DNA from: Brevundimonas mediterranea
GTDB lineage: Bacteria > Pseudomonadota > Alphaproteobacteria > Caulobacterales > Caulobacteraceae
NCBI RefSeq assembly: GCF_011064825.1
Contig: NZ_CP048751.1
Span: 806,001-870,000, forward strand
Reading direction: 5' to 3'
Length of the DNA: 64,000 nt
This document shows, in pieces, positions 3,843 through 62,963 of the stretch. Below the pieces are notes generated by a model. That model was not told where the DNA came from, made no database searches, and saw only the letters and a list, made by a program, of their open reading frames with translations. Positions within the stretch are counted from its first letter, which is position 1, and the number at the start of each line of letters is the position of its first letter. Both the position numbers and the translations under genes were made by a program.

Positions 3843-6800
3843 TCAGATCAGGCCGATTTCCGCCTCCACGCCCCAGCCGAACCCCTCGCCCCACTGCGCC
3901 ACGCCGATCCGCGCCGTCGGGGTCACGCCCCCAGGAAAGTCCGCCGCCCGCTCGGCGGCGGAATACAGAACCGTCATCCCCTCGACCTCCATCGTCCGTC
4001 GCACCGCCCCGGCGTCCCTCACCTGCACCCGGAACCGCATCGGATCCACCCCCGCAGGCTCCCCGTCCCATCCGTCCCCATACAGGCGCACGCGCGGCGT
4101 CCACCGCACCGTCCATACTTCCGCCCCGGCCTCCACAATCAGCCCCGCCGGCGACCACGGCCGGGCGTACAGGCCCTGCAAGGTGAAGCCGGCCTCGCGG
4201 AACCCCGCCCCGCCCGGCGCCGCCCCCGCCGGTCCGACGCGACAGATCAGCGGCAGTCCCCGTTCATTGCGCCCGATTTCGGCCCGCGCCAGCCGCTCGT
4301 CCAGAAACACCGCCACCGATCCCGCCGCCGCCCCGGCCTGCATCTCGACCTCGGTGCCCTGCTGTCCGCGCAGCAAGCCCGTCAGCCGCCAGGTCTCCGC
4401 CCCGACCAGGGTCGCCGACCGATATTGCACCACCTCCCATCCCGCCGCCGTCTCGACCGCCAGGGCGTTGGCCCCGCCCAGCACCGCCAGCGCCGAGGCG
4501 CTCTGCGGCGCCGCTCCCTCGACCCGAACCGTCAGGGCCTGAATCTCGTCCCAACGATGCCGAACCCCCGGTCCCAGCGGCTGGACCAGAACCCCGACCG
4601 TCGCCGCCGTCTCCAAGTCGCCCCGCGCCGTCAGAGTCTCCGCCCCGGCCCCGGCGTGCAGCCGCATCGGCCGCCACGGCTCAGCCGCCGCCGCCACGAC
4701 CGGCCGCTCGTCGTCCTCGCCCCCCATCAGGGGCGGCAGGTCCATCACCCGCACGAAGGGCGCCCCGACCACGGGCGGCGCCTCGCCGCCGCGCCCGCCG
4801 CCCTGATCCTCAAAGGTCCGCCGGACCCCGACCGGCTCCAGCACCGCCGACGGCGTCTCGTCCGCCGTCGTCCGCGTCACCCGCCAGTCGCCCTCGCGGC
4901 CCTCCAGCCGCACCACATCTCCCGGCTCCAGCCGCAAGGCCTCCAGCGGCCCCAGCGCCAGGGTCGTCGTCTCCGCCCCAGCCCCGTCCAGGGCCCGCTC
5001 CGCCGCCGCCCGCGCCAGACCGCCGCCGCACGCCAGCGGCAGATCCAGATCCACCCCGCCGCCCGTCGCCGCCTCAGGGTCCTCGGCCCGCACGACCACC
5101 GCCCCGGTCTGATAATCGGCCGTCTCGTCGATGAACCGCACCCTCGCCTCGCCGGGTCGCGGCTCCAGCGCCCGCGTCGCCGTCTCCGCCGCCCCCTGAT
5201 CCGGCAGAGCTAGGGCCTCACGCGCCAGATCGGCGCAAACCGCCGTCCGCCCCAGCACCGCCACCCGCCCGTCCCGTTCAGCCGCCACCGCATCGAACGC
5301 CGCCAGCAGCGGCTCCAGCGCATCGCGCGTCCGCATCGGCCGGTCGATCACATAGCCGGCCGCCGCCCCCTCGACGCCCTCAACCGCCCTCTCGTCCGCC
5401 GCCAGACCGCCCCGCGCCAGCACCGCCGCGATCAGGTCGCGCCCGTCCCCCGCCAGCCGTCCGTTCAGCCAGTGCCCGGCCCGCCACGCCCCTGCATCCG
5501 CCCAGACGTCCCCCCGCGCCGGAAAGGCCGGATAGGGACGCGCGTCCCAGCACCAGGCGTCCGCCCCCGCCAGCATCCGCCCGCCATAGACCGCCGACAC
5601 CGGATTGTTCACGGCCGCCGCATAATGACTCAGCACCGCCTCCAGCGCCGCCCGCTGCACCGCGTCGTCGCGCGCGCCGGTCGATCCCGGCGGCAGGCGG
5701 CTCTCGCTGCTCTTGGGATCCTGGAACAGGTTCGGCGCATTGCCGCCCCGGTCCACCGCCGCACAGCCGAACTCCGACAGCCGCACCGGCTTCATCCCCG
5801 AAACCCAGGCCGCCGGCGTCGCCGAGCGCACCCCGCCCGGCCGGTCATGGTGAAGGTTCGACCACCACCCCTTCAGGTCCTTGGGTCGGAACAGCCAGTC
5901 CTCGCCGTGCGCCGTATCGACGATGGGCGTCCTGGCCTGCGCCGCCCGGTCGGTCTCGCCTGCATAGAACCAGTCGAACCCCTCGCCGCCCGCGACGCCC
6001 GCCGCCAGATAGGCCGGGTCCGCCGCCCCATCGAACACCGCAGAATCCACCCCGCCGTCGCCCTCGCGCCAGTCGGTCAACGGCGGATACCAGTCGATCG
6101 ACACATGATCGATATTCGTATCGGCCCACAGCGGGTCCAGGTGAAACACCACCTCCCCGCCCGTCTGCCGTCCAAAATATTCGCTCCAGTCGGCCGCATA
6201 GGACAGTTTCACCCCCGGCCCGACCACCGCCCGGCACTCCGCCGCCAGCGCCCGGAACTGCGCCACCGCCGGAAAGCCCCCGGCCGCATCCCGCGTCCAG
6301 GTCACCCCCCGCATCTCCGACCCGATCAACAGGCCGTCCGCCCCTTCCTCGGCCGCGATCCGGGCATAGTGCAGCGCCATCCGCCGCAGCCCCCAATCGT
6401 CCGCCCCGCCGAACAGGGCCGCGATCTCCGTCGTCGCCCCCGTCCCGTCCACGCCCGCCACCCTTCCGCGCCACGGATAGCCGGGGCAGTCCATGAAGAC
6501 GAACGGATACAGCGTCACCTCCAGCCCCCGCGCCTTCAGCTCGCGGATCGCCTGCCGCACGCTCTCGTCCGACGGCGTCCCGCCATAGGCCGGGGCAGAT
6601 CCTCCCCCGCTGGGGGAGGTGTCGGCGAAGCCGACGGAGGGGGCCCGACTGACCTCGTACGCCTCATGCCTTTCCACTCCCGCCACCGACCAGTCCATCG
6701 GTTCGGTCGGCTTGTCGCGCCGCTCCACCCCCGGCCGCACCCGGCAATGCCCGGCCCGCAGATCATCCCCGAACCATCCCACCACCAGACTGACCCGTTT

Positions 6801-7571
6801 CAGGTTCGGCAGCTGCGCCTGCAGCTGGTCCAGCGACACGACCAGGTCCGCCCGGCCCTCGCCGTTGTGGACATTCTCCGCCGCCGTCCGCGTCAACCCC
6901 TCGCGCCGCATCACCGCCTCGGTCGCCAGGGCGAACTCCCCCGCGCCGGGGATCAGACACACGCCTTCCAGCAAGTCCTCCAGCCGCGCCCGTTCCCCGC
7001 GCGGTCGCCGGAACACCTCGAAACTCAACTGCGGAACCCGGTCCCCGAACGGCCCCAACGGCAGGTCCTCGAACACCACATAGGCCGTGCCCCGATAGGC
7101 AGGCGCCGCCCCTTCGACCGCCTCGATCAGCGGATCGGGCGTCGGGTCCTCGCCCCCGCGATACACCCGCATCGCCACGCCGTTCAGGTCCATCAGCCGT
7201 CCGTCGGCCCAGACCCGCCCTATCCCATCGATCTCCCCCTCGCACAGGGCCACGGCGAAACTCAGCGAATAGACATAGTCGACCGTCTTCGGCCCGCCCT
7301 TGCCCGCCCGTCCCTTGGCCTTGGCTTCCAGAAACCGCGCCGCCCAGATCACCTGACCCGTCACCCGCGCCCGCCCGAACACACAGGCCATCGGCGCCCC
7401 CTCCGCCGTCCCCTGCACCTTCAGGGCCTCCAGCCTAGGCCCGACCTGCCGCGCCGGCGACAGCGATCCGACCACCCGATTGTCGATCGCCCGCCCGATC
7501 GTCGCCCCGATCACCCGCCCGACCGGGCCCCCGACCGACTGCCCCACCGCGCTCAGTACGACTTGCGCCAT
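3843..7571 (-). CDS. GTA gp15: baseplate/host-specificity megatron protein
   Basis: Largest GTA tail protein (1242 aa), forming the baseplate megatron and tail-tip trimer that contacts the recipient. The N-terminal third resembles gp15 segments seen in Rhodobacter (GTVYVVFEDLPLGPFG-like region near 180). The middle has the GTA TIM-barrel domain, with motifs such as PFVFMDCPGYPW and SEFGCAAVDRGGN. The rest matches phage tail protein and C-terminal baseplate domains. The start is ATG with a strong GAGGAGG. Near residues 308-325 the protein reads through a palindromic repeat (APSVGFADTSPSGGGSAPA) that looks inserted just before the TIM barrel. Last gene of the GTA run. Confidence 0.93.
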   Translation of the reverse strand: MAQVVLSAVGQSVGGPVGRVIGATIGRAIDNRVVGSLSPARQVGPRLEALKVQGTAEGAPMACVFGRARVTGQVIWAARFLEAKAKGRAGKGGPKTVDYVYSLSFAVALCEGEIDGIGRVWADGRLMDLNGVAMRVYRGGEDPTPDPLIEAVEGAAPAYRGTAYVVFEDLPLGPFGDRVPQLSFEVFRRPRGERARLEDLLEGVCLIPGAGEFALATEAVMRREGLTRTAAENVHNGEGRADLVVSLDQLQAQLPNLKRVSLVVGWFGDDLRAGHCRVRPGVERRDKPTEPMDWSVAGVERHEAYEVSRAPSVGFADTSPSGGGSAPAYGGTPSDESVRQAIRELKARGLEVTLYPFVFMDCPGYPWRGRVAGVDGTGATTEIAALFGGADDWGLRRMALHYARIAAEEGADGLLIGSEMRGVTWTRDAAGGFPAVAQFRALAAECRAVVGPGVKLSYAADWSEYFGRQTGGEVVFHLDPLWADTNIDHVSIDWYPPLTDWREGDGGVDSAVFDGAADPAYLAAGVAGGEGFDWFYAGETDRAAQARTPIVDTAHGEDWLFRPKDLKGWWSNLHHDRPGGVRSATPAAWVSGMKPVRLSEFGCAAVDRGGNAPNLFQDPKSSESRLPPGSTGARDDAVQRAALEAVLSHYAAAVNNPVSAVYGGRMLAGADAWCWDARPYPAFPARGDVWADAGAWRAGHWLNGRLAGDGRDLIAAVLARGGLAADERAVEGVEGAAAGYVIDRPMRTRDALEPLLAAFDAVAAERDGRVAVLGRTAVCADLAREALALPDQGAAETATRALEPRPGEARVRFIDETADYQTGAVVVRAEDPEAATGGGVDLDLPLACGGGLARAAAERALDGAGAETTTLALGPLEALRLEPGDVVRLEGREGDWRVTRTTADETPSAVLEPVGVRRTFEDQGGGRGGEAPPVVGAPFVRVMDLPPLMGGEDDERPVVAAAAEPWRPMRLHAGAGAETLTARGDLETAATVGVLVQPLGPGVRHRWDEIQALTVRVEGAAPQSASALAVLGGANALAVETAAGWEVVQYRSATLVGAETWRLTGLLRGQQGTEVEMQAGAAAGSVAVFLDERLARAEIGRNERGLPLICRVGPAGAAPGGAGFREAGFTLQGLYARPWSPAGLIVEAGAEVWTVRWTPRVRLYGDGWDGEPAGVDPMRFRVQVRDAGAVRRTMEVEGMTVLYSAAERAADFPGGVTPTARIGVAQWGEGFGWGVEAEIGLI
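6601..6648. repeat. Palindromic repeat read in frame inside GTA gp15
   Basis: CCTCCCCC GCT GGGGGAGG is followed by a second small hairpin (GTCGGC GAA GCCGAC) and GGAGGGGGCC. The modules resemble those of the larger repeats elsewhere in the window, though this is the short two-hairpin form. It is in frame and contributes a Ser/Gly/Pro-rich loop to gp15. Confidence 0.75.
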
Positions 7572-7590
7572 CTACGCCTCCTCAAATCGT

Positions 7591-7736
7591 CTCCCTCCCC
7601 CGCGGGGGAGGGGGGCCGCGCAGCGGCCGGGTGGGGGCGGCCCGGCAAGGCCGCACGGACCGAGCGTGTATCGCCTTGCCCGCCCCACCCGGTCTCGCCT
7701 ACGGCTCGCCCTGCCCTCCCCGGTCGGGGAGGGAGA
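7591..7736. repeat. Composite palindromic repeat between GTA gp15 and gp14
   Basis: Fills nearly all of the gap between the gp14 stop and the gp15 start. Structure: outer hairpin CTCCCTCCCCC GCGG GGGAGG, inner hairpin GGCCGC GCA GCGGCC, a G-rich track (GGGTGGGGGCGG), a variable centre, a C-rich track (GCCCCACCC) and a closing hairpin ending GGGGAGGGAG. It is roughly an inverted repeat of itself. As RNA it would be heavily structured within the GTA transcript. Confidence 0.85.
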
Positions 7737-7739
7737 TAT

Positions 7740-8366
7740 TCAATCCGGAAACCGGAACACCGCCGCCAAACGCCTACGCCACCACATCCCCATCCAGCTC
7801 TCCACCACCGCCCGTCCCCAATAGGCGTGGATCATCCTCGGCTCCGGCCCGCCGGTGTCGCTCAGGATGGCGCAGTGTTTCACCGCCGCCCCCGGCGACA
7901 TGCGAAGTTTCACCGCCGCCCCCGGCGACATGCGAAACAGCAGCACGTCCCCAGTCCGCATCGCCTCGACCGGCACGGGCGTCAGCCACCGCCCTGCCGC
8001 CGCCAGCAGGGTCTCGCGCCCGCCGGTCTCGGCCCAGTCCGGCGAATAGGCGGGCAGACCCTCCGGCTCCGCCCCGACCACCTCGCGCCACACCCCGCGC
8101 ACCAGCCCCAGACAATCCGCCCCCACGCCCTTCATGCTGGCCTGATGCCGATACGGCGTCCCCAGCCAGGCCCGCGCAACAGCCACCGCCGCCGCACGCG
8201 CCTCTCCCTCCCCCTGCGGGGGAGGGGGGTCGAGCCGGAGGCGAGACCGGGTGGGAAGGGCCAGGCGACCCGCGCCCGCTGCCCCTGCCGCCCCCACCCC
8301 GTCATCGCTGCGCGCTGCCCCTCCCCCGCAGGGGGAGGGAGAAATCACCGTCGTCGCTCCCCTCAC
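7740..8366 (-). CDS. GTA gp14: NlpC/P60 cell-wall peptidase, with repeat-derived N-terminal extension
   Basis: Tail-associated peptidoglycan peptidase thought to open the recipient wall. The conserved core starts at AVARAWLGTPYRHQ (about 62). The likely catalytic Cys85 lies in GADCLGL and the likely His164 in KHCAILS. The GTG at 8366 overlaps the gp13 stop as GTGA and has GGGAG six bases upstream, which favours this coupled start. Residues 8-55 are then translated from a palindromic repeat. A GTG at 8186 just before the core is the alternative start. A 30-bp tandem duplication inserts ten residues (LRMSPGAAVK) immediately before His164, which could harm activity. Confidence 0.85.
   Translation of the reverse strand: MRGATTVISPSPCGGGAARSDDGVGAAGAAGAGRLALPTRSRLRLDPPPPQGEGEARAAAVAVARAWLGTPYRHQASMKGVGADCLGLVRGVWREVVGAEPEGLPAYSPDWAETGGRETLLAAAGRWLTPVPVEAMRTGDVLLFRMSPGAAVKLRMSPGAAVKHCAILSDTGGPEPRMIHAYWGRAVVESWMGMWWRRRLAAVFRFPD
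7877..7936. repeat. Perfect 30-bp tandem duplication inside GTA gp14
   Basis: Two head-to-tail copies of a 30-base unit (7877-7906 and 7907-7936) with no mismatch. The unit is ten codons, so the frame is kept and the protein carries MSPGAAVK twice. It lies just before the His of the NlpC/P60 active site. Confidence 0.95.
8203..8343. repeat. Composite palindromic repeat read in frame at the gp14 N-terminus
   Basis: Same architecture as the 7591-7736 copy: CTCCCTCCCCC TGC GGGGGAGG at one end, GGGTGGGAAGGGC and CCCCCACCCC tracks inside, and CCCTCCCCC GCA GGGGGAGGGAG at the other end. It starts about seven codons after the coupled gp14 start, leaves no stop and restores the frame, so it adds about 47 residues. 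Confidence 0.85.
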
Positions 8367-9007
8367 CGCCGGCTCCCGCCGTCGTTCCGCGCGCCTCCCG
8401 CCGGATAGGCCGTCAGGAAGTCATCCCCCGGCACGTCCGCAAAGCCCCGGAAATTCACTCCATTCCCGAACGTCCGGACACAGGTCTCCCACCGCTTGTC
8501 ACAGCGCCGTCCCGCCGCCGCGATCCCGCAGCGTTCATCCCCCAGCCGCGCGTCGCACATCCGGCCATAGGTCCGCCCGACCACCCGCTCCAGCTTCGAC
8601 AGCGGCCCTTCCAGATCGGCCAGGAACCGCCCCTCCTCGCGCCGCATCCGCGCCAGGGTCCCGGCCCACAGCCGAACCTTCAAATCTGGCTCCGACCAGT
8701 CCACCCGCCACAGCTCGACCTTCGCCCCATCGAACCGCCCCGCCGCCACATCCGCCTCGGTGATCGCCGCGTCATCCAGCGCGCCCGCCGCCGAGACCGA
8801 CCCCGCCGCCAGGCCCACGGCGCTCTCGGCCGCCCCGGCCGTCCAGCCGCTCCCGGCCCGACAGACCACCCCGTCCACCACCAAATCCCGGTCGTGATCG
8901 GTGAAGCCCGTCACCGCCCCGTCGGCCCGCTCCAGCCGCCAGACATGACAAAGCCTCGCCGCCCCGCTCTCGATGCGGGCGGCCATTTCGTCCGGTATGT
9001 CTCTCAT
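8363..9007 (-). CDS. GTA gp13: DUF2163 tail hub protein
   Basis: Tail hub component of the GTA, named by synteny and by the DUF2163 pattern. The N-terminus MRDIPDEMAARIESGAARLCHVWRLERADG and the phrase GFTDHDRDL are typical. C-terminal cysteines (MCDARLGDERCGI and CDKRWETC) fit the metal-binding end known in the RcGTA hub; metal binding is not shown here. 214 aa from the ATG at 9007. The longer open frame upstream runs into intergenic short repeats. The stop overlaps the gp14 start by four bases. Confidence 0.9.
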   Translation of the reverse strand: MRDIPDEMAARIESGAARLCHVWRLERADGAVTGFTDHDRDLVVDGVVCRAGSGWTAGAAESAVGLAAGSVSAAGALDDAAITEADVAAGRFDGAKVELWRVDWSEPDLKVRLWAGTLARMRREEGRFLADLEGPLSKLERVVGRTYGRMCDARLGDERCGIAAAGRRCDKRWETCVRTFGNGVNFRGFADVPGDDFLTAYPAGGARNDGGSRR

Positions 9008-9009
9008 CG

Positions 9010-9125
9010 TCACCTCTGTCGTGAGGGCGTGAAATCGTGAGGGCGTGACTCGTGAATCGTGAGCGGCGGCCTCCCGAGCCACGCCGCCCCTCTCCTCGCC
9101 ATCCACCACTCACCATTCACCCGCT
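9010..9125. repeat. Short-repeat patch with mirrored ends between gp13 and gp12
   Basis: On the plus strand, GTGAGGGCGTGAAATC-like units recur (about 9020-9062). The other end (9100-9118) has CACTCACCATTCACC, which is roughly their reverse complement. The whole patch could fold on itself. It resembles the 12061-12172 patch upstream of gp9, but with a different unit. No gene or clear site was seen. Confidence 0.6.
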
Positions 9126-9737
9126 TCAGACCCGCACCTCGATCAGCGGAACGGCCGCCATCCGCCCGGCGTCGAAACTCTCCAGGGTCGTCTCGATCCG
9201 GTCCGTGTCGAACCGCACCGGGGTGTCGAACTGAAAGCCCGCCGTCACCGCAGCGCCCGCCGCCGGCGCGACCGCCAGGCTCACCGCCCCGGTCGCCGCG
9301 TCCACCGCAAAGCCCGAAGTCTCGACGCCCCCGACCGCGACCCTGACCGTCCCCTCGACCGGCTTGACGATCGACCGCTCCACGTCGCCATAGGCCTTGA
9401 TCAGCGGGAACACCGTCCGCACCCCGTCGCCGACGCCCAGCGCCTGATCCCCCGCCGAGACCGTCCCGCTGGGCGCGCACGACTTGAAATCGGCGAAGTC
9501 CTTGAACCGGAACCCGTACAGCCGCCCCCGCCGCGCCTCGAAGAAGGCGATCAGCGCCGCCATGTCGTCCAGCGACCTCAGGTTCGCCCCGATCAGATAC
9601 CGCCGACGCCCCATCGCCCAGGGGCTGGACCGCCGCTCGAATCCGGAGCCCAGGGTGGTGATCTCCGTCCTTCGCTCGACCCCGCCGGTCGAGCCGAAGG
9701 CCAGCCGCGCGGGCAGCCGCACCTCATGGAAGTCCAT
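9126..9737 (-). CDS. GTA gp12: DUF2460 distal tail protein
   Basis: Distal tail protein joining tail tube and hub, with the DUF2460 pattern. The N-terminus MDFHEVRLPARLAFGSTGG and the segment AFFEARRGRLYGFRFKDFADF are hallmarks. 203 aa from ATG, a usual family length. It is the first GTA gene after the opposite-strand DUF805 gene, so its transcription from the main GTA promoter would have to cross that locus. Confidence 0.92.
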   Translation of the reverse strand: MDFHEVRLPARLAFGSTGGVERRTEITTLGSGFERRSSPWAMGRRRYLIGANLRSLDDMAALIAFFEARRGRLYGFRFKDFADFKSCAPSGTVSAGDQALGVGDGVRTVFPLIKAYGDVERSIVKPVEGTVRVAVGGVETSGFAVDAATGAVSLAVAPAAGAAVTAGFQFDTPVRFDTDRIETTLESFDAGRMAAVPLIEVRV

Positions 9738-9834
9738 CCGAACCTGTCCCCTGTTTCACTTGTTCGCAGAGCGCCGCTCGTCCATGCTCGCCCCATCGCG
9801 GCCGCAATGGCCGTATCGAGACGGGAGCGAAGAC

Positions 9835-10536
9835 TTGCGCGGCGAAATCCTCAGCTATGACACCACGGCCGGAACCGGCCTGATCAGCGGCGACGACGGC
9901 GTGCGCTACAGTTTCGTCTCATCCAGCCTTCAGTCCCCGGCCGTGCCCGCCGCCGGCGTCCGGGTCGACTTCGTGCCCGAGGGTGAAGAGGCGACACAGA
10001 TCCTGATCCTGGCCGGCGCCCCCTCGACCGTCGGCGTCGCCGGCGGTCTGTCCGCCTCGACCGACACCACCCTCGCCGGCTTTGACTGGCAGAAGCTGTT
10101 CCTGTCGTTCGAGGGCCGCGTCCGTCGTAGCCATTTCTGGATCGGCTGGCTGGTCCTGCTGGGCGTCAATGTGGTCATCAGCTGGATCCCCGTCATCAAC
10201 CTGCTCGGCTTCGTGCTGATCTGGCCGAACCTCGCCATTTCGGTGAAGCGCCTGCACGACATGGGCAAGACCGGCTGGCTGGTCGCCATCCCCTGGGTCG
10301 CATCGACCGTCTTCCTGATCATCGGCTTCTTCATGGTGATGGGCGCCGCCATCGCCGGCGGCGTGGGCGCCGACTATTACGAGAACAATCCCGCCGCTCT
10401 CTTCGCCATGATGGGACCGGCCGTGGGCGCCTTCGTCCTCGCCGCCCTGGTCCCCCTGGCCTTCCTGCTGTGGATCGGCCTGGTGGAAGGCGATCAGGGC
10501 GACAACCGCTTCGGCCCGAACCCCAAGAGCGAATAG
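9835..10536 (+). CDS. DUF805 membrane protein with cold-shock-like N-terminal domain
   Basis: 233 aa. The N-terminus (RGEILSYDTTAGTGLISGDDGVRYSF, residues 2-27) reads like a divergent cold-shock-type OB strand set. From residue about 86 (FSFEGRVRRSHFW-like) it becomes a DUF805 membrane domain with about four hydrophobic helices and the motif RLHDMGKTGW. The start is TTG at 9835 with GGGAG seven bases upstream; the open frame further upstream overlaps gp12 antisense. It lies on the opposite strand inside the GTA cluster and ends in its own strong terminator. DUF805 function is unknown; nothing here ties it to the particle. Confidence 0.85.
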   Translation: MRGEILSYDTTAGTGLISGDDGVRYSFVSSSLQSPAVPAAGVRVDFVPEGEEATQILILAGAPSTVGVAGGLSASTDTTLAGFDWQKLFLSFEGRVRRSHFWIGWLVLLGVNVVISWIPVINLLGFVLIWPNLAISVKRLHDMGKTGWLVAIPWVASTVFLIIGFFMVMGAAIAGGVGADYYENNPAALFAMMGPAVGAFVLAALVPLAFLLWIGLVEGDQGDNRFGPNPKSE

Positions 10537-10559
10537 CCTCATTGCCTGAGTGACTTCAG

Positions 10560-10590
10560 CGCCGCCCCGTCCTTGACGGGGCGGCGTTTC
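10560..10590 (+). terminator. Rho-independent terminator of the DUF805 gene
   Basis: Perfect 12-bp GC stem CGCCGCCCCGTC / GACGGGGCGGCG with a 3-base loop, followed by TTTCT. It ends 24-50 bases after the DUF805 stop and abuts the gp11 stop codon. On the GTA strand it forms the same hairpin just after gp11, so GTA transcription must pass it. Confidence 0.88.
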
Positions 10591-11120
10591 TACATCCGCC
10601 GCGCCCCCAGGCTGACCGCCCGCGCCAGCATCTGGGCGATCTGGGCCTCGGACCGCAACAGGGCCGGCGCCCCGCCGTCCACCGCCACATTGACCGTCAC
10701 TCCGCCGCCAGAGACGGGGCCGACCTCGCCGCCGGTCGCCGGGCGAAACACCTCCGGCCCGCGCTCCCCGACCAGATAGGCTGCACCGCCCAGCACCGGC
10801 CCCCCGTCGGCCCGCGCCCCGCCGAAACTGCTCATCGCCGCCTGGATCGCCGCGCTCAGTCCGCCGCCCGATCCGCCCGACCCCGCCGCCGCATTCACCG
10901 CATCCAGCACCGCCTTCGCCAGTTCCGACAGCGACACCTCCCCGTCCGCCGCCGCGCGCGCCAGCGACCGGGTCAGACTGTCGCCCGCCCGTCCGAACGC
11001 CGCCTCGATCGCATTGGCCGCATCCTCGGCCGGGCCTTTCAGCGCCTCCAGCGCCGCCCCGGCCTCGGCGGTCTTCAGCGGCAGATCCTCGATCCCGCTG
11101 CGCCCGAATTCATCCGTCAT
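10590..11120 (-). CDS. GTA gp11: tail tape measure protein
   Basis: Short tape-measure protein for the GTA tail (176 aa; gp11 is always short because the GTA tail is short). The N-terminal half is helical and Ala/Leu-rich (EAGAALEALKGPAEDAANAIEAAFGRAGDSL). The C-terminus has the family signature ADGGPVLGGAAYLVGERGPEVFRPATGG. ATG at 11120. Its start overlaps the gp10.1 stop by 11 bases, so translation is coupled. Confidence 0.92.
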   Translation of the reverse strand: MTDEFGRSGIEDLPLKTAEAGAALEALKGPAEDAANAIEAAFGRAGDSLTRSLARAAADGEVSLSELAKAVLDAVNAAAGSGGSGGGLSAAIQAAMSSFGGARADGGPVLGGAAYLVGERGPEVFRPATGGEVGPVSGGGVTVNVAVDGGAPALLRSEAQIAQMLARAVSLGARRM

Positions 11121-11298
11121 CCGGCCAGTCCTCCATCAGCTTCGTCAGCCCCGCCCGACCCATCGGCGCCGTTCCGCGCGGCGCCGCGGTCAGCATCCGC
11201 CACTCCTTCAGCGACAGCCGCCAGAAGGCCTCCGGCGCGATTCCCATCCGCATCGCCGCCCGCAGCATCTCGCCCCACGGGGTCTCCCCCGAGTTCAC
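11110..11298 (-). CDS. GTA gp10.1: tail assembly chaperone-like small protein
   Basis: 62-aa protein in the place of RcGTA gp10.1, between gp10 and the tape measure. The sequence PWGEMLRAAMRMGIAPEAFWRLSLKEWRML matches the phage tail assembly chaperone family, which often ends in such a FW-LS-EW motif. The start GTG (11298) overlaps the gp10 stop as GTGA, and the gene ends inside gp11. Confidence comes mostly from synteny and this motif. Confidence 0.85.
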   Translation of the reverse strand: MNSGETPWGEMLRAAMRMGIAPEAFWRLSLKEWRMLTAAPRGTAPMGRAGLTKLMEDWPDDG

Positions 11299-11633
11299 CG
11301 CGCCGCCGCCTCGAACGCCGCCGCCACCGCCCGCGCCGCCTCGCGCGGCTCGACCCCGGCCACATCCGGCGCCGTCTCCCCGCCCCCGCGCAGCACCGCC
11401 GCCAGCACCACTATCAGATCCCGCGCCGACAGAGCCTTCATCCGCTCCGCCGCCGCCGCCAGCCCCTCGACCGCCAACCCGGTCTCGATCTCCGCCAGCG
11501 CCCCCAGGGTCAGACACACCCGACGCCGCACCCCGCCCAGCACCACCCCCACCTCGCCCCGCGCGCCAATCTCCCCCCCTTGGGGGGAGAGGGCCGCCCC
11601 GCGGCCCGAGGGGGACCAGTCCCCGCCGCTCAT
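11295..11633 (-). CDS. GTA gp10: GTA family protein (tail assembly), with repeat-derived segment
   Basis: 112 aa. The core GGVRRRVCLTLGALAEIETGL...LSARDLIVVLAAVLRGGG matches the gp10 family, probably a tail assembly factor. The start ATG (11633) overlaps the gp9 stop as ATGA. Residues about 7-22 (SPSGRGAALSPQGGEIGA) are encoded by a hairpin repeat, inserted in frame right after the start. Confidence 0.88.
   Translation of the reverse strand: MSGGDWSPSGRGAALSPQGGEIGARGEVGVVLGGVRRRVCLTLGALAEIETGLAVEGLAAAAERMKALSARDLIVVLAAVLRGGGETAPDVAGVEPREAARAVAAAFEAAAR
11569..11616. repeat. Hairpin repeat read in frame inside GTA gp10
   Basis: ATCTCCCCCC TT GGGGGGAGA hairpin followed by GGGCCGC CCC GCGGCCC and AGGGGGA. 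It is shorter than the 140-180-base elements and has a CTCCCCCC/GGGGGGAG core, so it may be a separate family. It is in frame with gp10 and has no stop. Confidence 0.75.
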
Positions 11634-12040
11634 GTCGCCGAAAACCCGATCTCGCCCGCGCTCGCCAGGCTCAGCGCAAAGGTCGCCTCCCCCTCGTGCT
11701 CGCCGGCGTATTCCAGCGCCGCCACCAGGAACGGCCCCTCCAGCACGCCGAAGTCCGGCACCACCAGCCGCCACCGTCTCGCCGCCTGATCGAAGAAGGC
11801 TTCGCGCACCAGGGCGTCCGAAGCCGCATCGCGGAAGATCCCCTGGCCCGACACCGCCGCCGACTTGACTCCCGCCCCCGCCAGCAGTTCGCGCCACCGC
11901 CCGGCGCTGTCGCCGTCGGTCGCATCCACCGTGCGCGCATTCAGCGAAATCGTCCGCGCCCTCAACCCCGCCACCGTCGTGAACACGCCCGGCGCGCCCT
12001 CGATCTTCAGCAGCATGTCCTTGCCCGCCTGTGCGGTCAT
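11630..12040 (-). CDS. GTA gp9: major tail tube protein
   Basis: Major tail protein that stacks into the tail tube (136 aa). N-terminus MTAQAGKDMLLKIEGAPGVFTTVAGLRARTISLNARTVDATDGDS is highly characteristic, as is GRWRELLAGAG. The ATG at 12040 is chosen because it matches this N-terminus; the open frame upstream runs into the short-repeat patch. The stop overlaps the gp10 start. Confidence 0.94.
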   Translation of the reverse strand: MTAQAGKDMLLKIEGAPGVFTTVAGLRARTISLNARTVDATDGDSAGRWRELLAGAGVKSAAVSGQGIFRDAASDALVREAFFDQAARRWRLVVPDFGVLEGPFLVAALEYAGEHEGEATFALSLASAGEIGFSAT

Positions 12041-12060
12041 TTTCGTCCTCGCTTTGCTCT

Positions 12061-12172
12061 TGAGTGGCGAGTGGCGAGTGACGAGTGGCGAGGAAAATCG
12101 TCGCAGCGGGTCCCCCGATGCGTCCGCCTCCCGAACCCAGCTCGCCACTCGCCACTAACCACTCGCCACTTC
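12061..12172. repeat. Short-repeat patch with inverted ends between gp9 and gp8
   Basis: On the plus strand, GAGTGGCGAGTGGCGAGTGACGAGT-type units occupy 12062-12095 and their reverse complement (CTCGCCACTCGCCACTAACC) occupies about 12150-12172, enclosing about 55 bases. It would fold as a long stem in RNA. The gp8 stop codon lies inside the second arm. Confidence 0.75.
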
Positions 12173-12550
12173 CTCCGTCACCGCCCTCAGCCGCACCACC
12201 GCATAGGTCCGCCGCCCGTCCCCCGCCCGGAACACGTCGGCGAAATTCGCCCTCAGCGTCGCCGTCCGCACTCCGTCGGCCTCCAGCACCGCCTCGTGCA
12301 GACACGCCCGCACCGCCGCCGCCACCGCCTTGGCCTCTTCCGATCCGGCGAACCGCGACACCCCGGTCAGGGTCAGCCTCTGCTCCACCCCGCCCCCGTC
12401 CGCCGCCACCGGTCGGCTCTCGCACTGGCCGATCACCAGATGCGGATGCTCCGCCCCCTCCGGCGCCTGATCGAACACCCGTCCGCCCACCAGGGCCGCC
12501 ACCGCCGGATCCGCCTTCAACGCCGCCAACACCCTCATGCCGGCGCTCAC
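12155..12550 (-). CDS. GTA gp8: DUF3168 tail terminator protein
   Basis: Tail terminator that ends tube growth and joins head to tail (131 aa). DUF3168 features: VLAALKADPAVAALVGGRVFDQAPEGAEHPHLVIGQ and the later alternation around HEAVLEADGVR. The coupled start GTG at 12550 overlaps the preceding stop as GTGA; ATG at 12538 (MRVLAALKAD) is the alternative. The last codons fall in the intergenic repeat patch. Confidence 0.9.
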   Translation of the reverse strand: MSAGMRVLAALKADPAVAALVGGRVFDQAPEGAEHPHLVIGQCESRPVAADGGGVEQRLTLTGVSRFAGSEEAKAVAAAVRACLHEAVLEADGVRTATLRANFADVFRAGDGRRTYAVVRLRAVTEEVASG

Positions 12551-12813
12551 AGCCGCACCGCGCGATACGGCGCGACCCAGGCCTCGACCGGCTCCACCTG
12601 AATCTCGGCGTCCCCCCGCTCATAGGCCCGCAGCACCAGCATCAGGATCGCCAGCCGCAACCCCGCCGGCGAGGTGGACGTCAGGCTCAGCCCCACATCC
12701 CCCTCCACCCGCGCCTGGGCCGCCGCGATCAGGGTCTGGATCAGACCATCCTCCGCCTCGTGCTCGACCCGCAAAAACAGCTTCGCCTCCGCCACCGTCA
12801 CCGGCTGCGCCAT
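12547..12813 (-). CDS. GTA gp6-like head-tail adaptor (short)
   Basis: Phage gp6-like head-tail connector, expected to dock on the portal. PVTVAEAKLFLRVEHEAEDGLIQTLIAAAQARVEG is the usual family opening. At 88 aa it is much shorter than the RcGTA adaptor, keeping the N-terminal helical domain. ATG with GGGGAG six bases upstream. No separate gp7 (stopper) gene lies between this gene and gp8: the two overlap by four bases. Confidence 0.88.
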   Translation of the reverse strand: MAQPVTVAEAKLFLRVEHEAEDGLIQTLIAAAQARVEGDVGLSLTSTSPAGLRLAILMLVLRAYERGDAEIQVEPVEAWVAPYRAVRL

Positions 12814-12839
12814 GCAGATCTCCCCTTTCGAATTCAGAA

Positions 12840-12975
12840 CTCTCCCTCCCCCACGGGGGAGGGGCGTCGCGCAGCGACGGGGTGGGGCGGGCCAGGCGAC
12901 CCGGGCTCGGTTTCCCTGCCGCCCCCACCCGGCCGCTCACGCGGCCTGCCCTCCCCCGCAGGGGGAGGGAGAAAC
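12840..12975. repeat. Composite palindromic repeat between GTA gp6 and capsid gene
   Basis: CTCCCTCCCCC ACG GGGGAGG, CGTCGC GCA GCGACG, GGGTGGGGCGGG, variable centre, CCCCACCC, GGCCGC-type hairpin, CCCTCCCCC GCA GGGGGAGGGAG. It fills the gap between capsid stop and gp6 start on the minus strand. Confidence 0.85.
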
Positions 12976-12986
12976 GAGCGTCACGA

Positions 12987-14228
12987 TCACCCCGCGCTGA
13001 ACTTCATCACCTTGATCGCGTCGAAGTTCTGCACCCCGCCGCCGACGCGCTTGGTGGTGTAGAACAGCACATAGGGCTTGGCCGAATAGGGGTCCCTCAG
13101 CACCCGCACCCCCGCCCGATCCACGATCAGATACCCCCGCTGGAAGTCCCCGAAGGCGATGGACAGACTGTTGGCCGCCACATCCGGCATGGTCTCGATC
13201 TCCGTGACCGGATAGCCCAGCAGCGACGCCGTCTCGCCCAGCCGCGTCGCCGGCTGCCAGATGTAGTTGCCGTCAGCGTCCTTGAACTTGCGCACGGCCG
13301 AGACCGTCTTGCGGTTCATCACGAACCGCCCGTTCGGCCGGTACTGGGCCTTGGGCGCATAGACCAGGTCGATCAGCCGGTCCGCCGGACTGGTCGGCGC
13401 AAACCCGCCCGCCGCGCCCGACGCCACAGAACCGATCTGCCCCCAGGCCTGATCCGTGTCCGCCACGGTCGGATAGGTCAGGAAGCCCTTGGGCTTGTTC
13501 ACCCCGTCGCCGCCCACGAAGGCCTGGGTCTCCTGGGCCGCAAAGGCGTCCTCGACCTCGGCCGCCAGCCATTCGTCCAGATCGACCATGGCGTCGTCCA
13601 GCAACGCCTGGGTCGCCGCCGGATTGGCGTACAGATCGGCCGAGGGGAACTCCAGCAGGGCCAGGGTCGCCGGATCCGTCTCGGGCCGCGCGGCCGTCTC
13701 CGCCACCCAGCCGCAGGCCACGCCCGCCGTCGACACCGGCTTTCTGAACACTCCGGCCGCCACCGTCCGCACCGTGGCGATCTCGCGCATCGGCGAGGCC
13801 GCCATCAGCCGCCGCTCGATGGCCCGCTCGGTCTCATACGGCACGACATAGCCGCCCGAGGTCGCCCCGCCCGACAACCCCGCCTTGACCTCCAGGGCGC
13901 CAGATTGGCCCGTCTTCAGATAGCCGTCCCAAGCCGCTTTGGCTTCTGGCGCCGACGCCGGCTCGGCGGGCTCGCCGCCGATAGCCGGACGCCTATTCTG
14001 GCTCATCACCCGATCCAGCCGCGCCTGCGCCGCCGCCACCGCCTGGTCGATCCTCGCCACCTTCTCCTCCAGCAGCACATCGGCCACCGCCTTCTTCTCG
14101 ATCTCGCCCAGCCGGACGTCGTTCGCCCCTTTGAACGCCTCGAACGCCGCCATCATCTCGCGCACGACAGCCTGCGCCCCAGAACCCGCAAGAATGGGCG
14201 AGCCGGAAGCCTGTTTGGTCTCTTTCAT
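12987..14228 (-). CDS. GTA gp5: major capsid protein (HK97 fold)
   Basis: 413-aa HK97-family major capsid protein. The first about 100 residues form a coiled scaffold-like delta region (EFKGANDVRLGEIEKKAVADVLLEEKVARIDQAV) normally removed by the gp4 protease. The mature part holds family phrases such as GGYVVPYETERAIERRL, LYANPAATQALLDDA and FVGGDGVNKPKGFLTYP. ATG start. Its upstream neighbour on the same strand should be gp4, but 1.6 kb of opposite-strand genes lie between them. Confidence 0.95.
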   Translation of the reverse strand: MKETKQASGSPILAGSGAQAVVREMMAAFEAFKGANDVRLGEIEKKAVADVLLEEKVARIDQAVAAAQARLDRVMSQNRRPAIGGEPAEPASAPEAKAAWDGYLKTGQSGALEVKAGLSGGATSGGYVVPYETERAIERRLMAASPMREIATVRTVAAGVFRKPVSTAGVACGWVAETAARPETDPATLALLEFPSADLYANPAATQALLDDAMVDLDEWLAAEVEDAFAAQETQAFVGGDGVNKPKGFLTYPTVADTDQAWGQIGSVASGAAGGFAPTSPADRLIDLVYAPKAQYRPNGRFVMNRKTVSAVRKFKDADGNYIWQPATRLGETASLLGYPVTEIETMPDVAANSLSIAFGDFQRGYLIVDRAGVRVLRDPYSAKPYVLFYTTKRVGGGVQNFDAIKVMKFSAG

Positions 14229-14353
14229 GATGTCTCCGTTGAATGCGCCCGTCGTCGGCGCCTTGTGATCCGGGCTCGCCCGAAACCTGTGATTGACGGC
14301 TGCCGCCCGTCAAAAAGCGTGCTACGCCCCGCTCAGATCGGGGAGTTTCACGC

Positions 14354-14731
14354 ATGTTCAGTCTTGTTCTGGCCTTTTCCGGCGCTCTGGCGTTTCAAAC
14401 CCCGCCTGACGTGTCCACCCTGCCGCCTGAACAGGCCGCGCAGGTCAGCAAGGTCTTCGCCGGCATGACCCGCATGTTCGAAACCCTGGGGACCTGCGAA
14501 CGTCAGTTCCCACCCGGCGTCGCGGATCAGATCCGCGCCTCGATGGCCAACGAGACCGATCCGGCCAAGAAGGCGGCCACGGCCTTCCTCCTGGACGCCT
14601 ACGACAAGGGCAAGGCCTCCCCGCGCGCCGCCACCATCTCATCCGACGAATGCACTGCGGAAATGCAGGCCATCACCGCCGAGATGCAGGCGCTCCAGAC
14701 CGAAATCGAAGCCGCCGCGCCCGAAAGCTGA
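14354..14731 (+). CDS. Small secreted protein of unknown function
   Basis: 125 aa, not recognised. MFSLVLAFSGALAFQTPPD looks like a short signal peptide. The rest is helical and Gln/Glu-rich, with two cysteines (GTCERQ and DECTAEMQ) that could pair in the periplasm and a coiled-coil-like repeat at the end (EMQAITAEMQALQTEIE). ATG with GGGGAG upstream. It lies on the opposite strand between GTA capsid and protease genes, the first of three such genes. Base composition is like its GTA neighbours. Confidence 0.65.
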   Translation: MFSLVLAFSGALAFQTPPDVSTLPPEQAAQVSKVFAGMTRMFETLGTCERQFPPGVADQIRASMANETDPAKKAATAFLLDAYDKGKASPRAATISSDECTAEMQAITAEMQALQTEIEAAAPES

Positions 14732-14795
14732 AGCCGCCGCGTCGCCCCAGGCCGCCGCCCGCCGCGAACGACCGTGACCCTAGCCCCGGACACTC

Positions 14796-14829
14796 GGAAT
14801 GTCTGAGAGGGGTGGGAAGGGGACATTCC
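14796..14829. repeat. GGAATGTC ... GACATTCC inverted repeat
   Basis: Eight-base arms (14796-14803 and 14822-14829) with an 18-base G-rich loop, just upstream of the next small gene. It looks like a small dispersed palindromic element of a kind common between genes in this group; only one copy was seen here. Confidence 0.5.
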
Positions 14830-14846
14830 CGTGTTATCGTCTCCCG

Positions 14847-15266
14847 ATGGCAACGATCATTCAAACGCTCCATTTATTGGCTGCCACGTTGTGCAGCATC
14901 TCACTGTTGGCATGCCAAGCTGCAGTCGCTGATGAGCCGCACAGCTTGACCCATGACAACCGCGCTGAGCTGGTCGAACTTCGCGCGCAGAACAAATTCC
15001 AACCGGACCTGCTGTCTGGCTACACGGGCGCCGATCTGCCTGAGGACGTCGCCCCCCTCAATGCCGCCGTGAATAACCTCATCGACGCGCTTCTTGCTCA
15101 ACCCGATGGTCCGGTAAGTGACGGCGAGGTTCGAGGACTCGTCGCGAAAGCTATCAACGAAGTTGATCTGTTCGCCACAGAAGACCGCGAGAGGGCTTAT
15201 CGCTACATAAGGCAGGTATGGAACACATTGGGGTTTGAAGGTGATCCGTTGATCCAGCCGCGCTAG
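14847..15266 (+). CDS. Predicted lipoprotein (possibly DUF4844-like)
   Basis: 139 aa from ATG 14847. The N-terminus MATIIQTLHLLAATLCSISL leads into LLACQAAV, a lipobox with Cys near 23, so it is probably a lipoprotein. The body has LNAAVNNLIDALL and FATEDRERAYRYIRQVWNTLGFEG, which resembles DUF4844 proteins; this is from memory and not certain. It is visibly AT-richer than the GTA genes around it, suggesting separate acquisition. Confidence 0.65.
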   Translation: MATIIQTLHLLAATLCSISLLACQAAVADEPHSLTHDNRAELVELRAQNKFQPDLLSGYTGADLPEDVAPLNAAVNNLIDALLAQPDGPVSDGEVRGLVAKAINEVDLFATEDRERAYRYIRQVWNTLGFEGDPLIQPR

Positions 15267-15272
15267 AGCGAA

Positions 15273-15288
15273 GTCCGCAACGGGTCGA
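15273..15288 (+). repeat. 16-bp direct repeat, left copy
   Basis: GTCCGCAACGGGTCGA, identical to 15847-15862. The two copies bracket the gene at 15404-15844. They could be target-like ends of an inserted segment, or two copies of a dispersed GTCCGC...GGGTCG element. Confidence 0.6.
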
Positions 15289-15403
15289 TTTCGGCCGTGG
15301 GCCTCGGAGCCGGAAGGAGCCCTTTAACGCGGAGCCGGAAAGCGATCGTCGCCATCGACCGCTAGGGGTGGTTTGCGGAAGTAGCCTGTGCGAAATTCGT
15401 TCG

Positions 15404-15844
15404 ATGCGACGCGACCATCTGCTCTCCATCATTGTCGCCATACCGTTCCTCGTAGCGGTTCCAGGCGTGGCGGACGCTTGTCGCATCGGGCACGATACGG
15501 TCATCTTCGAAGAACGCCCTGTCCCCATAGGTCTTGATGACTTCGAAATTCTCGAAGTTCGCTTTCGAAATCATGGTCCGGAAGTGGAGCAATTTAGACT
15601 TGAACAGCGCTATCTTGTGAATGAAAATTCACAGCTGTTAGGTCAAAGCCTTATTGGCGCAGCATTTCTGCCCGGCGCATCGGAGGCGACACCTGTCTAT
15701 GCGACTGAAACCAGCTGCACAGGTACTTTTGATCGTGAGCCGCTGGACACCGAAGCCTATCTCTTCGGTCGCTGGACCGTGCTTCCTAGTGGACGAAAGG
15801 CTTTTGTGGCAGGCGGAAACTGGAATGGCCGCTGGCATTTCTAA
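15404..15844 (+). CDS. Secreted protein of unknown function, AT-rich
   Basis: 146 aa, not recognised. A signal peptide is clear (MRRDHLLSIIVAIPFLVAV, then PGVADAC). The body is beta-rich (FEILEVRFRNHGPEVEQFRLEQRYLV) and ends FVAGGNWNGRWHF. Three cysteines. ATG at 15404 is chosen because the signal peptide begins there. It is the AT-richest gene inside the GTA cluster and is bracketed by a 16-bp direct repeat, so it is probably an insertion. Confidence 0.65.
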   Translation: MRRDHLLSIIVAIPFLVAVPGVADACRIGHDTVIFEERPVPIGLDDFEILEVRFRNHGPEVEQFRLEQRYLVNENSQLLGQSLIGAAFLPGASEATPVYATETSCTGTFDREPLDTEAYLFGRWTVLPSGRKAFVAGGNWNGRWHF

Positions 15845-15846
15845 AT

Positions 15847-15862
15847 GTCCGCAACGGGTCGA
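15847..15862 (+). repeat. 16-bp direct repeat, right copy
   Basis: GTCCGCAACGGGTCGA, identical to 15273-15288. It starts three bases after the upstream gene's stop and ends just before the gp4 stop codon. Confidence 0.6.
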
Positions 15863-15868
15863 ACCCCG

Positions 15869-16456
15869 TCATGGGCCCACCGCCCTAAACCGCGCGCCCG
15901 GCAGCATCGGGAAGGTCACCAGCGACACCTCCCACAGCTCCACCCCGCTCAGCACCCGCAGCCGGCCCTGACGCCGCGCCCGCGCGGTGCGGTATCCGAT
16001 CGACAGCCCGTCCATCGCCCCCGCCCGGCTCAAGGCGGCGGCGAAGCGGGCTTCGGGCGACCAGTCCGCGATCCGTCCACGCACGAACAGGCCGCGCGCG
16101 TCCTCCATGATCCGGTCCCAGACGCCGACCGGCGCCCGGCCGTCGTGCTGGCTCAGCATCCGCACCCCCTCGACGCCCGTCTTCGCCAGACTGTCCGCAA
16201 ACGCCCCCGCCTGCACCACGTCCCCGTTCAGATCGGCCACGCCCCACAGCGAGGCGTAGCCTTCGATCACCAGCGCCCCGCCGCCTCTCCCTCCCCCTGC
16301 GGGGGAGGGGGGTCGAGCCGCAGGCGAGACCGGGTGGGAAGGGCCAGGCGATGCATTCCCCGTCTGTGCGCCCTTGCCCTGCCGCCCCCACCCGGTCGCT
16401 TCGCGCCCCCCCTCCCCGGAACGGGGAGGGAGAAGATCGTGCGCCAATTTTCTCAT
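15869..16456 (-). CDS. GTA gp4: HK97-family prohead protease, with repeat-derived insert
   Basis: Serine protease that matures the capsid (195 aa). The core begins at ALVIEGYASLWGVADLNGDVV (about 61). His in MLSQHDGR and Ser in DGLSIGYR fit the catalytic pair, followed by LWEVSLVTFPMLPGA. The start ATG (16456) overlaps the gp3.5 stop as ATGA. After eight codons (MRKLAHDL) the frame passes through a palindromic repeat that adds about 50 Gly/Pro/Arg-rich residues before the core. Confidence 0.9.
   Translation of the reverse strand: MRKLAHDLLPPRSGEGGREATGWGRQGKGAQTGNASPGPSHPVSPAARPPSPAGGGRGGGALVIEGYASLWGVADLNGDVVQAGAFADSLAKTGVEGVRMLSQHDGRAPVGVWDRIMEDARGLFVRGRIADWSPEARFAAALSRAGAMDGLSIGYRTARARRQGRLRVLSGVELWEVSLVTFPMLPGARFRAVGP
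16285..16434. repeat. Composite palindromic repeat read in frame at the gp4 N-terminus
   Basis: CTCCCTCCCCC TGC GGGGGAGG, GGGTGGGAAGGGC, variable centre, CCCCCACCC, CGAAGCGACC-type track and CCCTCCCC GGAAC GGGGAGGGAG. Its translation in gp4 uses a different reading frame of the element from that in gp14, so the repeat is open in more than one frame. Confidence 0.85.
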
Positions 16457-31603: not shown

Positions 31604-31616
31604 AACGCACGATTTC

Positions 31617-31797
31617 TCCCTCCCCCTGCGGGGGAGGGGCGTCGCGCCAGCGACGGGGCGGGGGCGGCCAGGCAATGCGCGCGCGCCTTATGCGGGCCCC
31701 ACCCGTCCCATTCTGAATCGATCTGTCTCGCGTCGCCCGGCCCGGCCCACCCGGCTTCGCTGCGCTACGCCCCCCTCCCCCGCAGGGGGAGGGAGAT
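31617..31797. repeat. Composite palindromic repeat after the DUF2336 gene
   Basis: About 180 bases: CTCCCTCCCCC TGC GGGGGAGG, CGTCGC GCCA GCGACG, GGCGGGGGCGG, variable centre with ATTCTGAATCG, GCCCACCC, GGCTTCGCTGCGC and CCCTCCCCC GCA GGGGGAGGGAG. It sits in the convergent gap between DUF2336 and mucR. Confidence 0.85.
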
Positions 31798-31803
31798 CAA
31801 ACA

Positions 31804-60091: not shown

Positions 60092-60255
60092 TCTCCCTCT
60101 CCCTCCCCCTGCGGGGGAGGGGGGCGGAGGCGGAGCCGAAGCCGGGTGGGAAGGGCCGGGCGACGCATCACAGCTTGCAAAAACAGGTGCGCCCGCGCCC
60201 TGCCGCCCCCACCCCGTCGCTGGCGCGACGCCCCTCCCCCGCAGGGGGAGGGAAA
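60092..60255. repeat. Composite palindromic repeat between SDR and protease genes
   Basis: CTCCCTCCCCC TGC GGGGGAGG, GGGTGGGAAGGGC, variable centre, CCCCCACCC, CGTCGC TGG GCGACG and CCCTCCCCC GCA GGGGGAGGGA. In a convergent gap. Confidence 0.85.
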
Positions 60256-62781: not shown

Positions 62782-62788
62782 CCCATAA

Positions 62789-62954
62789 ATCTCCCTCCCC
62801 CGCGGGGGAGGGGCGTCGCGCAGCGACGGGGTGGGGGCGGCAGGGCGACAACGCACCGCCCCAATCTAACAGATATCTGTGGGCCCTTGCCTTGCCCGCC
62901 CCACCCGGCTCCGCGTCGCTTCGCCCCCCTCCCCCGCAGGGGGGAGGGAGAGCG
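62789..62954. repeat. Composite palindromic repeat after thrC
   Basis: CTCCCTCCCCC GCG GGGGAGG, CGTCGC GCA GCGACG, GGGTGGGGGCGGC, variable centre, GCCCCACCC, CCGCGTCGCTTCGC, CCCTCCCCC GCA GGGGGGAGGGAG. In the convergent gap between thrC and the CsbD-like gene. Confidence 0.85.
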
Positions 62955-62963
62955 TTTTATTAC

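Follow-up and report, generated by a model that had tools for sequence, protein, structure and literature searches.

Comparison of related loci shows that short palindromic elements have entered, apparently many times, the operon that encodes a gene transfer agent (GTA) in Brevundimonas, and that in three of its genes they are, judging from the reading frame, translated as codons. We analyzed a window of 64,000 nucleotides from Brevundimonas mediterranea (contig NZ_CP048751.1, C1:806001-870000 of a 3,383,373-base genome in a single contig), in which the GTA cluster occupies the minus strand from about 3.8 to 19 kb. Four GTA genes of the window, gp15, gp14, gp10, and gp4, contain such an element, and these inserts look like non-autonomous derivatives of a longer palindromic element bearing a DUF559 nuclease gene. 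The GTA gene numbers and names (prohead protease, capsid protein) are presumed ones, except that the portal was named by a match. Loci and genome segments used for comparison carry our own handles (L032 and the like).

Palindromic elements inside GTA genes

The short palindrome occurs either as a full element, with two 50- to 60-nt arms and a CTCCC..GGGAG hairpin at the end of each, or as a half element consisting of a single arm. The copies in gp4 and gp14 are full elements, and those in gp10 and gp15 are half elements. The hairpin pattern is found at 6601 in gp15, at 8206 and 8319 in gp14, at 11571 in gp10, and at 16289 and 16410 in gp4. All four segments are free of stops, each in the frame of its host gene. 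The original prediction had placed stop-free repeats within these four frames and coupled starts just ahead of those in gp14, gp10, and gp4; the open reading frame (ORF) list and the start-stop overlaps bear it out, as follows.

3843..7571, minus strand, gp15, host gene, from the ORF list
6601..6648, minus strand, half element, in frame in gp15, residues 310-325 (APSVGFADTSPSGGGS)
7740..8366, minus strand, gp14, host gene, GTG start (GTGA) overlapping the gp13 stop
8203..8343, minus strand, full element, in frame close to the gp14 start
11295..11633, minus strand, gp10, host gene, ATG start (ATGA) overlapping the gp9 stop
11569..11616, minus strand, half element, in frame close to the gp10 start, net +48 nt against L043
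15869..16456, minus strand, gp4, host gene, ATG start (ATGA) overlapping the stop of the preceding gene
16285..16434, minus strand, full element, in frame close to the gp4 start

The N-terminal residues added ahead of the protein core number 60 in gp4, 57 in gp14, and 22 in gp10. The full copies clearly outfold shuffled sequence, with fold energies of -96.5 kcal/mol for gp4 (z of -2.8) and -113.1 kcal/mol for gp14 (z of -5.5). The 48-nt half elements of gp10 and gp15 do so less (z of -1.8 and -2.2), as 11 and 6 of 200 shuffles, respectively, fold equally well. Separately from its element, gp14 holds a perfect 30-nt tandem duplication (7877-7936) that adds ten residues in frame.

Orthologues with and without the elements

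The comparison set consisted of 80 related GTA loci plus the window. An element was present at most 260 nt before the core in 21 of 76 loci for gp4, 18 of 62 for gp14, and 8 of 71 for gp10. In gp15, the segment measures 48 nt in the window and in L032 and 96 nt (two units) in L040, and the same site spans 9 to 24 nt in the other 56 loci with both flanks identified; the element is thus present in 3 of 60 loci, a total that includes L043 but in which that locus is unreadable. The sequences on either side of the gp10 insert, ATGAGCGRCGGGGAC and ATYGGCGCG, abut in L043 and stand 48 nt apart in the window.

On a FastTree phylogeny of six GTA proteins (70 rows, local support only), the minimum numbers of changes were 14 for gp4, 10 for gp14, 6 for gp10, and 2 for gp15. 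The gp10 labels on that tree take in L103, a locus with its hairpins far upstream, and L097 is absent from the gp14 labels. For two further sites in the operon, the minima were 15 (a linker in gp5) and 18 (the gp5/gp6 spacer). The spacer, behind the capsid gene, carries an element in 32 of 78 loci. In 25 of 81 loci, among them L047, L057, L062, L068, L076, and L077, a half element forms the linker that joins the N-terminal region to the capsid fold near residue 90 of gp5; the gp5 of the window lacks this half element, and its sub-sequence differs between species in the nine loci that were read.

Many orthologues lack the segments, and the comparison shows those within the GTA genes to be, as best read from these distributions, repeated insertions into the operon. 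Conserved protein sequence shared across the Caulobacterales would have told against the original prediction; across the family, the segments show no such conservation as protein.

The gp8/gp9 spacer of the window (12045-12165) contains a palindrome of a second family (GAGTGGCGAGT..ACTCGCCACTC and similar sequences), unrelated to the first, and a palindrome that resembles it, judged by eye only, lies in the gp12/gp13 spacer (9010-9115). This second family occupies the same place in gp4 as the CTCCC element, in frame, in about ten more species.

Reading frame across the elements

A start codon behind the element would leave the distance from the preceding stop to the core in any phase and would allow stops in between. 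Among the 47 loci with an element in gp4, gp14, or gp10, 44 were scored (L037, L073, and the gp14 of L097 were left out), and 5 of the 76 gp4 loci were dropped from the phase test because the preceding gene was not found. The coupling phase was kept in 17 of 19 loci for gp4, 17 of 17 for gp14, and 7 of 8 for gp10, and the frame was open in every one of these (19/19, 17/17, and 8/8). Together, the phase was kept in 41 of 44 and the frame open in 44 of 44; the loci are related and these counts are not independent, although the tree gives several insertions. The gp5/gp6 spacer served as a control, since gp6 starts behind its element, and there the phases were spread 12:12:8, with only 6 of 32 loci open. 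Because phase is kept and frames are open in the three genes, unlike in the control, we take it as shown that the elements in gp4, gp14, and gp10 are read as codons. The use of internal starts, which would have undone the original prediction, would not have kept the phase in this way.

According to the original prediction, translation also uses different frames of the element in gp4 and in gp14. This is so, and all three frames are used: hairpins in phases 0, 1, and 2 number 21, 4, and 11 in gp4, 4, 20, and 4 in gp14, and 3, 2, and 5 in gp10, where the figures include the two hairpins of L103 lying far upstream. It had further proposed that an element open in several frames can spread without harm. 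Insertion without breakage was indeed seen, but the openness itself is mostly a matter of base composition. In 37 full copies from intergenic DNA, the six frames were open in 62% of cases, against 52% in mononucleotide shuffles, and the lengths of these copies fall evenly over the three phases (14:11:12). The in-frame state is therefore best read as the result of selection after insertion.

Selection on the host genes

The cores of the GTA genes are under purifying selection and are not decaying. Against L032, the ratio of nonsynonymous to synonymous substitution rates (dN/dS) was 0.10 for gp5, 0.11 for gp4, 0.17 for gp15, 0.24 for gp14, and 0.37 for gp10, and the range over the two nearest pairs compared was 0.08 to 0.43. 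These core values, with no stop in the 44 scored genes, speak against the earlier suggestion that the GTA genes are weakly selected. The peptides encoded by the elements evolve more freely than the cores, with a dN/dS of 0.36 to 1.03 where it could be computed from few changes. The gp4 element showed 0 synonymous differences from L032 over 50 sites, where the core has a dS of 0.345. This identity at silent sites could reflect structural constraint or exchange with other copies.

Abundance of the elements and the GTA hotspot

The B. mediterranea genome has 205 starts of the pattern CTCCCN{5,13}GGGAG, against 30 for the same pattern read backwards. Merging of neighboring hairpins gave at least 99 elements. 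The element list used N5-13 spacers over 1,189,478 of the 3,383,373 bases, the other scans N5-8 only; it is nearly complete, with 1 and 4 forward places outside it. Among the elements listed, 7 of 99 fall in the 14.1-kb GTA cluster, where 0.39 would be expected, and the cluster is the densest 14-kb stretch. The second densest stretch among them overlaps and adjoins a series of genes that, from their sequence, we take to serve histidine biosynthesis (L112, genome 1,034,000-1,047,500).

In this genome and 27 relatives (28 genomes), the GTA spans contained 123 pattern starts against 12.1 expected, and the reversed pattern gave 3. The GTA cluster is a hotspot for the element, enriched about tenfold over these genomes. 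One full element makes two to three counts in this tally, so that per-genome Poisson values are too strong; since the pattern counts nest and pair, the fold value is safer than P values. Genome sizes were rounded for 27 of the 28. The total retains three genomes with fewer hairpins than the backwards control (L046, L064, and L110) and four with zero hairpins in the GTA span (L044, L046, L054, and L092). The GTA cluster has been described as set far from long repeats of over 800 bp (PMC9836097). In Brevundimonas, the cluster is a hotspot for short repeats.

The other elements of the genome look mostly intergenic by the coding scores of their flanks. Among 89 elements scored in this way, few are in frame: the GTA copies, two in L129, and perhaps one in L114 (8520). 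The two in L129 (155-1861) are half elements read in frame in flexible linkers of what we take, from its sequence, to be a branched-chain E2 acyltransferase. In the window, the original prediction of like elements between genes held at four places outside the cluster, with hairpins near 31616, 42073, 60099, and 62791. The remaining copies in the window are as follows.

7590..7737, minus strand, full element, gp14/gp15 spacer
12841..12972, minus strand, full element, gp5/gp6 spacer
17891..17910, minus strand, half element directly ahead of gp3 (portal)
31611..31800, strand not assigned, intergenic full element, left arm 85% identical over 75 columns to the DUF559 element L170
42068..42239, strand not assigned, intergenic full element
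60094..60255, strand not assigned, intergenic full element
62786..62955, strand not assigned, intergenic full element

A search of Rfam gave a single match, to whalefall-1, which covers a portion of the gp5/gp6 element and is below threshold (19.6 bits against 37).

A long form carrying a DUF559 gene

In two elements of the B. mediterranea genome (L169 and L170), the arms stand about 430 nt apart, and the gene between them encodes a DUF559 protein (PF04480). Each of the four DUF559 genes of the genome is flanked by hairpins, which are of three different kinds. The long forms L169 and L170 could be aligned with 33 of the 39 short full copies of the genome, including those of gp4 and gp14 (arms 79 to 92%).

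DUF559 is present in 94 of 101 genomes of the genus. Flanks were collected for 33 loci, 4 from this genome and 29 best matches, and 32 were tested, L192 being without a left flank. Inverted arms of 51 to 155 nt with 74 to 97% identity were found close to the DUF559 gene in 25 of 32 loci; the control at 800 to 1000 nt gave no arms in the loci long enough to test. With sites grouped by shared flanks, and truncated loci without flank records treated as sites of their own, arms were present in at least one member at 14 of 18 sites and in every member at 12 of 18. The test was extended to other genera of Alphaproteobacteria with 21 loci (the 25 loci L200-L224, minus L218, which is of the same genus, and three truncated loci; the weak L225-L228 were outside the set). 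Arms were found in 14 of 21, with 0 in the control, and three more were just below threshold. Similarity of the protein and similarity of the arms were correlated, with a rho of 0.51 over 14 rows, one per site (1 of 2000 permutations), and 0.72 over 25 rows that include some orthologous copies. These results show the arms and the DUF559 gene to form what is, by sequence comparison, one unit.

The junction occupied by L170 was followed in 30 loci, this one and 29 of the same genus. It holds a DUF559 element in 10, a short CTCCC element in 2, other palindromes in 7, and a bare spacer of about 20 to 45 nt in 11. Its flanks (L122) both score as coding and lie on the same strand, as in the GTA operon. 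Among 44 loci with sufficient upstream sequence, 4 (L042, L065, L097, and L104) have a DUF559 gene no more than 1.7 kb ahead of the GTA terminase.

The fold of the DUF559 domain matches the homing endonuclease I-Bth0305I and Vsr. Residues E15, D44, E55, D57, H61, and D68 are invariant in 15 DUF559 proteins, and we assume that these acidic and histidine residues are catalytic residues of the active site. A DUF559 gene has already been placed in the EDxHD homing family, in the section of one paper that treats inteins (PMC9403480), and a Caulobacter DUF559 protein is described as Vsr-like and tied to a DNA damage response (PMC12907096). The literature that we searched mentions neither palindromes within GTA genes nor DUF559 genes enclosed in palindromic repeats.

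Proposed mechanism and alternatives

The account that we consider rather probable joins repeated insertion of a mobile palindrome, survival of in-frame copies, and homing-like spread driven by DUF559. By comparison of loci, a short mobile palindrome has inserted into the GTA operon many times. Copies persist where the frame stays open, and the ribosome then reads a spacer of 16 to 60 residues at the N terminus or in a loop. The short forms are the arms of the longer element minus its middle gene, which encodes a putative EDxHD/Vsr-type endonuclease, and would have arisen from the long form by deletion. The likeliest action of the nuclease is a cut or nick at a palindrome or target, upon which repair would copy the element in, and the same homing-like route may move short forms in trans. 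DUF559 would in this manner be the agent that mobilizes the GTA inserts. The positions suggest that insertion prefers junctions of co-directional genes just behind the stop codon. In the GTA operon, the start codon at such a junction overlaps the preceding gene, so that a fresh insertion would come to lie within the first codons of the gene that follows and would usually last only if it kept the frame.

Several observations weigh against this account. No movement was observed. At the gp10 site, the only one read closely, comparison of empty and filled forms gave no obvious target duplication. Arms over threshold were missing at 7 of 32 loci in the genus and at 7 of 21 in the class, where the test covered the best-scoring matches and not a random draw. 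The numbers of hairpins and DUF559 genes are loosely related over 80 of 101 genomes (rho of 0.43 raw and 0.33 control-subtracted), the relation taken as a ratio is not significant (rho of 0.16), and genomes without DUF559 still have some hairpins. Distant species share a DUF559 site, a pattern equally compatible with a resident and with a mobile gene, and other palindromes, without a known nuclease, occupy the same sites. As for the frame, the gene of L037 is cut by a contig end and is open as far as it is present. In L097, gp14 is open, and gp13 matches two frames and overruns the stop that it usually has. In L073 (1-95), also at a contig end, a stop lies inside the gp4 element, 27 codons before the core, the sole sign of a broken frame among the 47 element-bearing loci; it counts against translation through the element in that locus.

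A wider and more tentative proposal, one that we would narrowly hesitate to back, is a mobile element present across the class: a palindrome with an EDxHD/DUF559 gene in its loop, accompanied by swarms of short non-autonomous forms, homing to gene junctions without a transposase and making coding additions to GTA genes. If true, it would account for the common CTCCC..GGGAG intergenic repeats of Alphaproteobacteria, and overlapping GTA junctions would have given phage-like structural proteins new coding segments.

Elements of the repetitive extragenic palindromic (REP) type are thought elsewhere to tune mRNA decay or translation, and the GTA copies may likewise be useful RNA hairpins that adjust single genes within the operon, with in-frame reading as a by-product. 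This is a fair rival that could act together with mobility, though as the explanation we find it unlikely. The junction sites recur in many species, with unrelated palindromes, the gp5/gp6 spacer being occupied in 32 of 78 loci; the his gene run is the next hotspot of the genome; and the silent sites of the gp4 element are identical between the window and L032. Yet any given element is absent from most loci and gains and losses are frequent, so that no single hairpin is needed, and half elements and unrelated families serve equally.

About as doubtful is the view that some other enzyme moves the palindromes, with DUF559 either a passenger or a nuclease resident for repair. The persistence of DUF559 at some sites over long times would fit, as would the Vsr-like, damage-linked Caulobacter protein (PMC12907096). 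However, Y1 transposases number none in this genome and are found in 1 of 61 genus genomes, other mobile-element enzymes not having been searched for, and the arms flank DUF559 genes across the class, against 0 in controls, and vary along with the protein.

That translation restarts at a GTG behind the element, which would then be a leader outside the protein, is improbable. In the window, in-frame GTG codons do stand at the core starts of gp4, gp10, and gp14, a purine run (GGGAGGGAGA) closes the elements of gp4 and gp14, L073 has its stop, and the REP paper cautions about such cases (PMC3733652). A restart would nevertheless free both phase and stops, as is seen for gp6 behind its own element, whereas 41 of the 44 scored loci keep the phase and all 44 are open, and the copies in gp15 and in the E2 linkers lie mid-protein. 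The least credible alternative, already disfavored, is that the GTA genes are decaying and tolerate anything: the tenfold enrichment and the foreign-looking opposite-strand ORFs inside the cluster would suit it, but the low core dN/dS and the open frames of all 44 scored genes do not.

Relation to known repeat systems

In-frame palindromes in Rickettsia and REP elements in ORFs of several genera are already known (PMC3733652, PMC10969869). The GTA setting, the genus-wide phase test, and the DUF559 unit have no earlier report in the literature searched. Rickettsia palindromic elements (RPE) are palindromes of up to about 150 bp that sit in frame in unrelated protein genes and encode extra residues (PMC10969869, PMC3733652). 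By description, the elements here are alike in being in-frame palindromes in protein genes that apparently stay functional, namely, four GTA genes and two E2 linkers (L129). They differ in that most copies are intergenic, where RPE are marked by a large share in ORFs, in the concentration of in-frame copies within a single operon of phage origin, and in that the family has a nuclease-bearing long form. The present elements thus offer a well-sampled case outside Rickettsia of palindromes turning into protein sequence, with species sampling sufficient to test phase, gain, and loss.

In the GTAG and CGTC families of REP elements, one dedicated enzyme gene, that of a REP-associated tyrosine transposase (RAYT), is flanked by palindromes. 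REP elements and REPINs with a RAYT resemble the present family as paired short palindromes, mostly close behind genes and some in ORFs (PMC3733652), whereas the gene flanked here is DUF559, an unrelated nuclease. A RAYT (Y1 transposase) was considered as the mover and rejected on the counts given above. With a candidate enzyme for a common type of intergenic repeat, the spread of such repeats becomes directly testable.

The EDxHD nucleases I-Bth0305I and Vsr share the fold of the DUF559 domain; the gene here differs from them in lying in a palindromic element at a junction, not in an intron or intein, and in having the size of the catalytic domain only. As in miniature inverted-repeat transposable elements (MITEs), short non-autonomous forms share their ends, as terminal inverted repeats, with a longer gene-bearing element, 33 of 39 short copies aligning with L169 and L170. 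The difference from MITEs is that the gene-bearing form carries a nuclease in place of a known transposase and that no clear duplication of the target was seen. The CIR repeats of Caulobacter, a related genus, are associated with CcrM and are reported as strictly intergenic (PMC10969869), whereas several copies here are within genes. A link with the CcrM site was rejected, as GANTC occurs in just 6 of 39 full copies.

Other features of the window and the GTA loci

The closest GTA loci are those of Brevundimonas, with gp5 98% identical to that of a Brevundimonas bin and 96% to that of B. intermedia. The GTA genes of L076, L086, and L091 group with Brevundimonas despite record titles of Pseudanabaena, Porphyrobacter, and Bordetella, and these records are probably misnamed or mixed bins. 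Inside the GTA cluster of the window, plus-strand ORFs at 9484-10536 and 14354-15844 are unlike GTA genes and look foreign. Outside the cluster, a perfect 131-nt tandem duplication lies at window positions 50137-50398.

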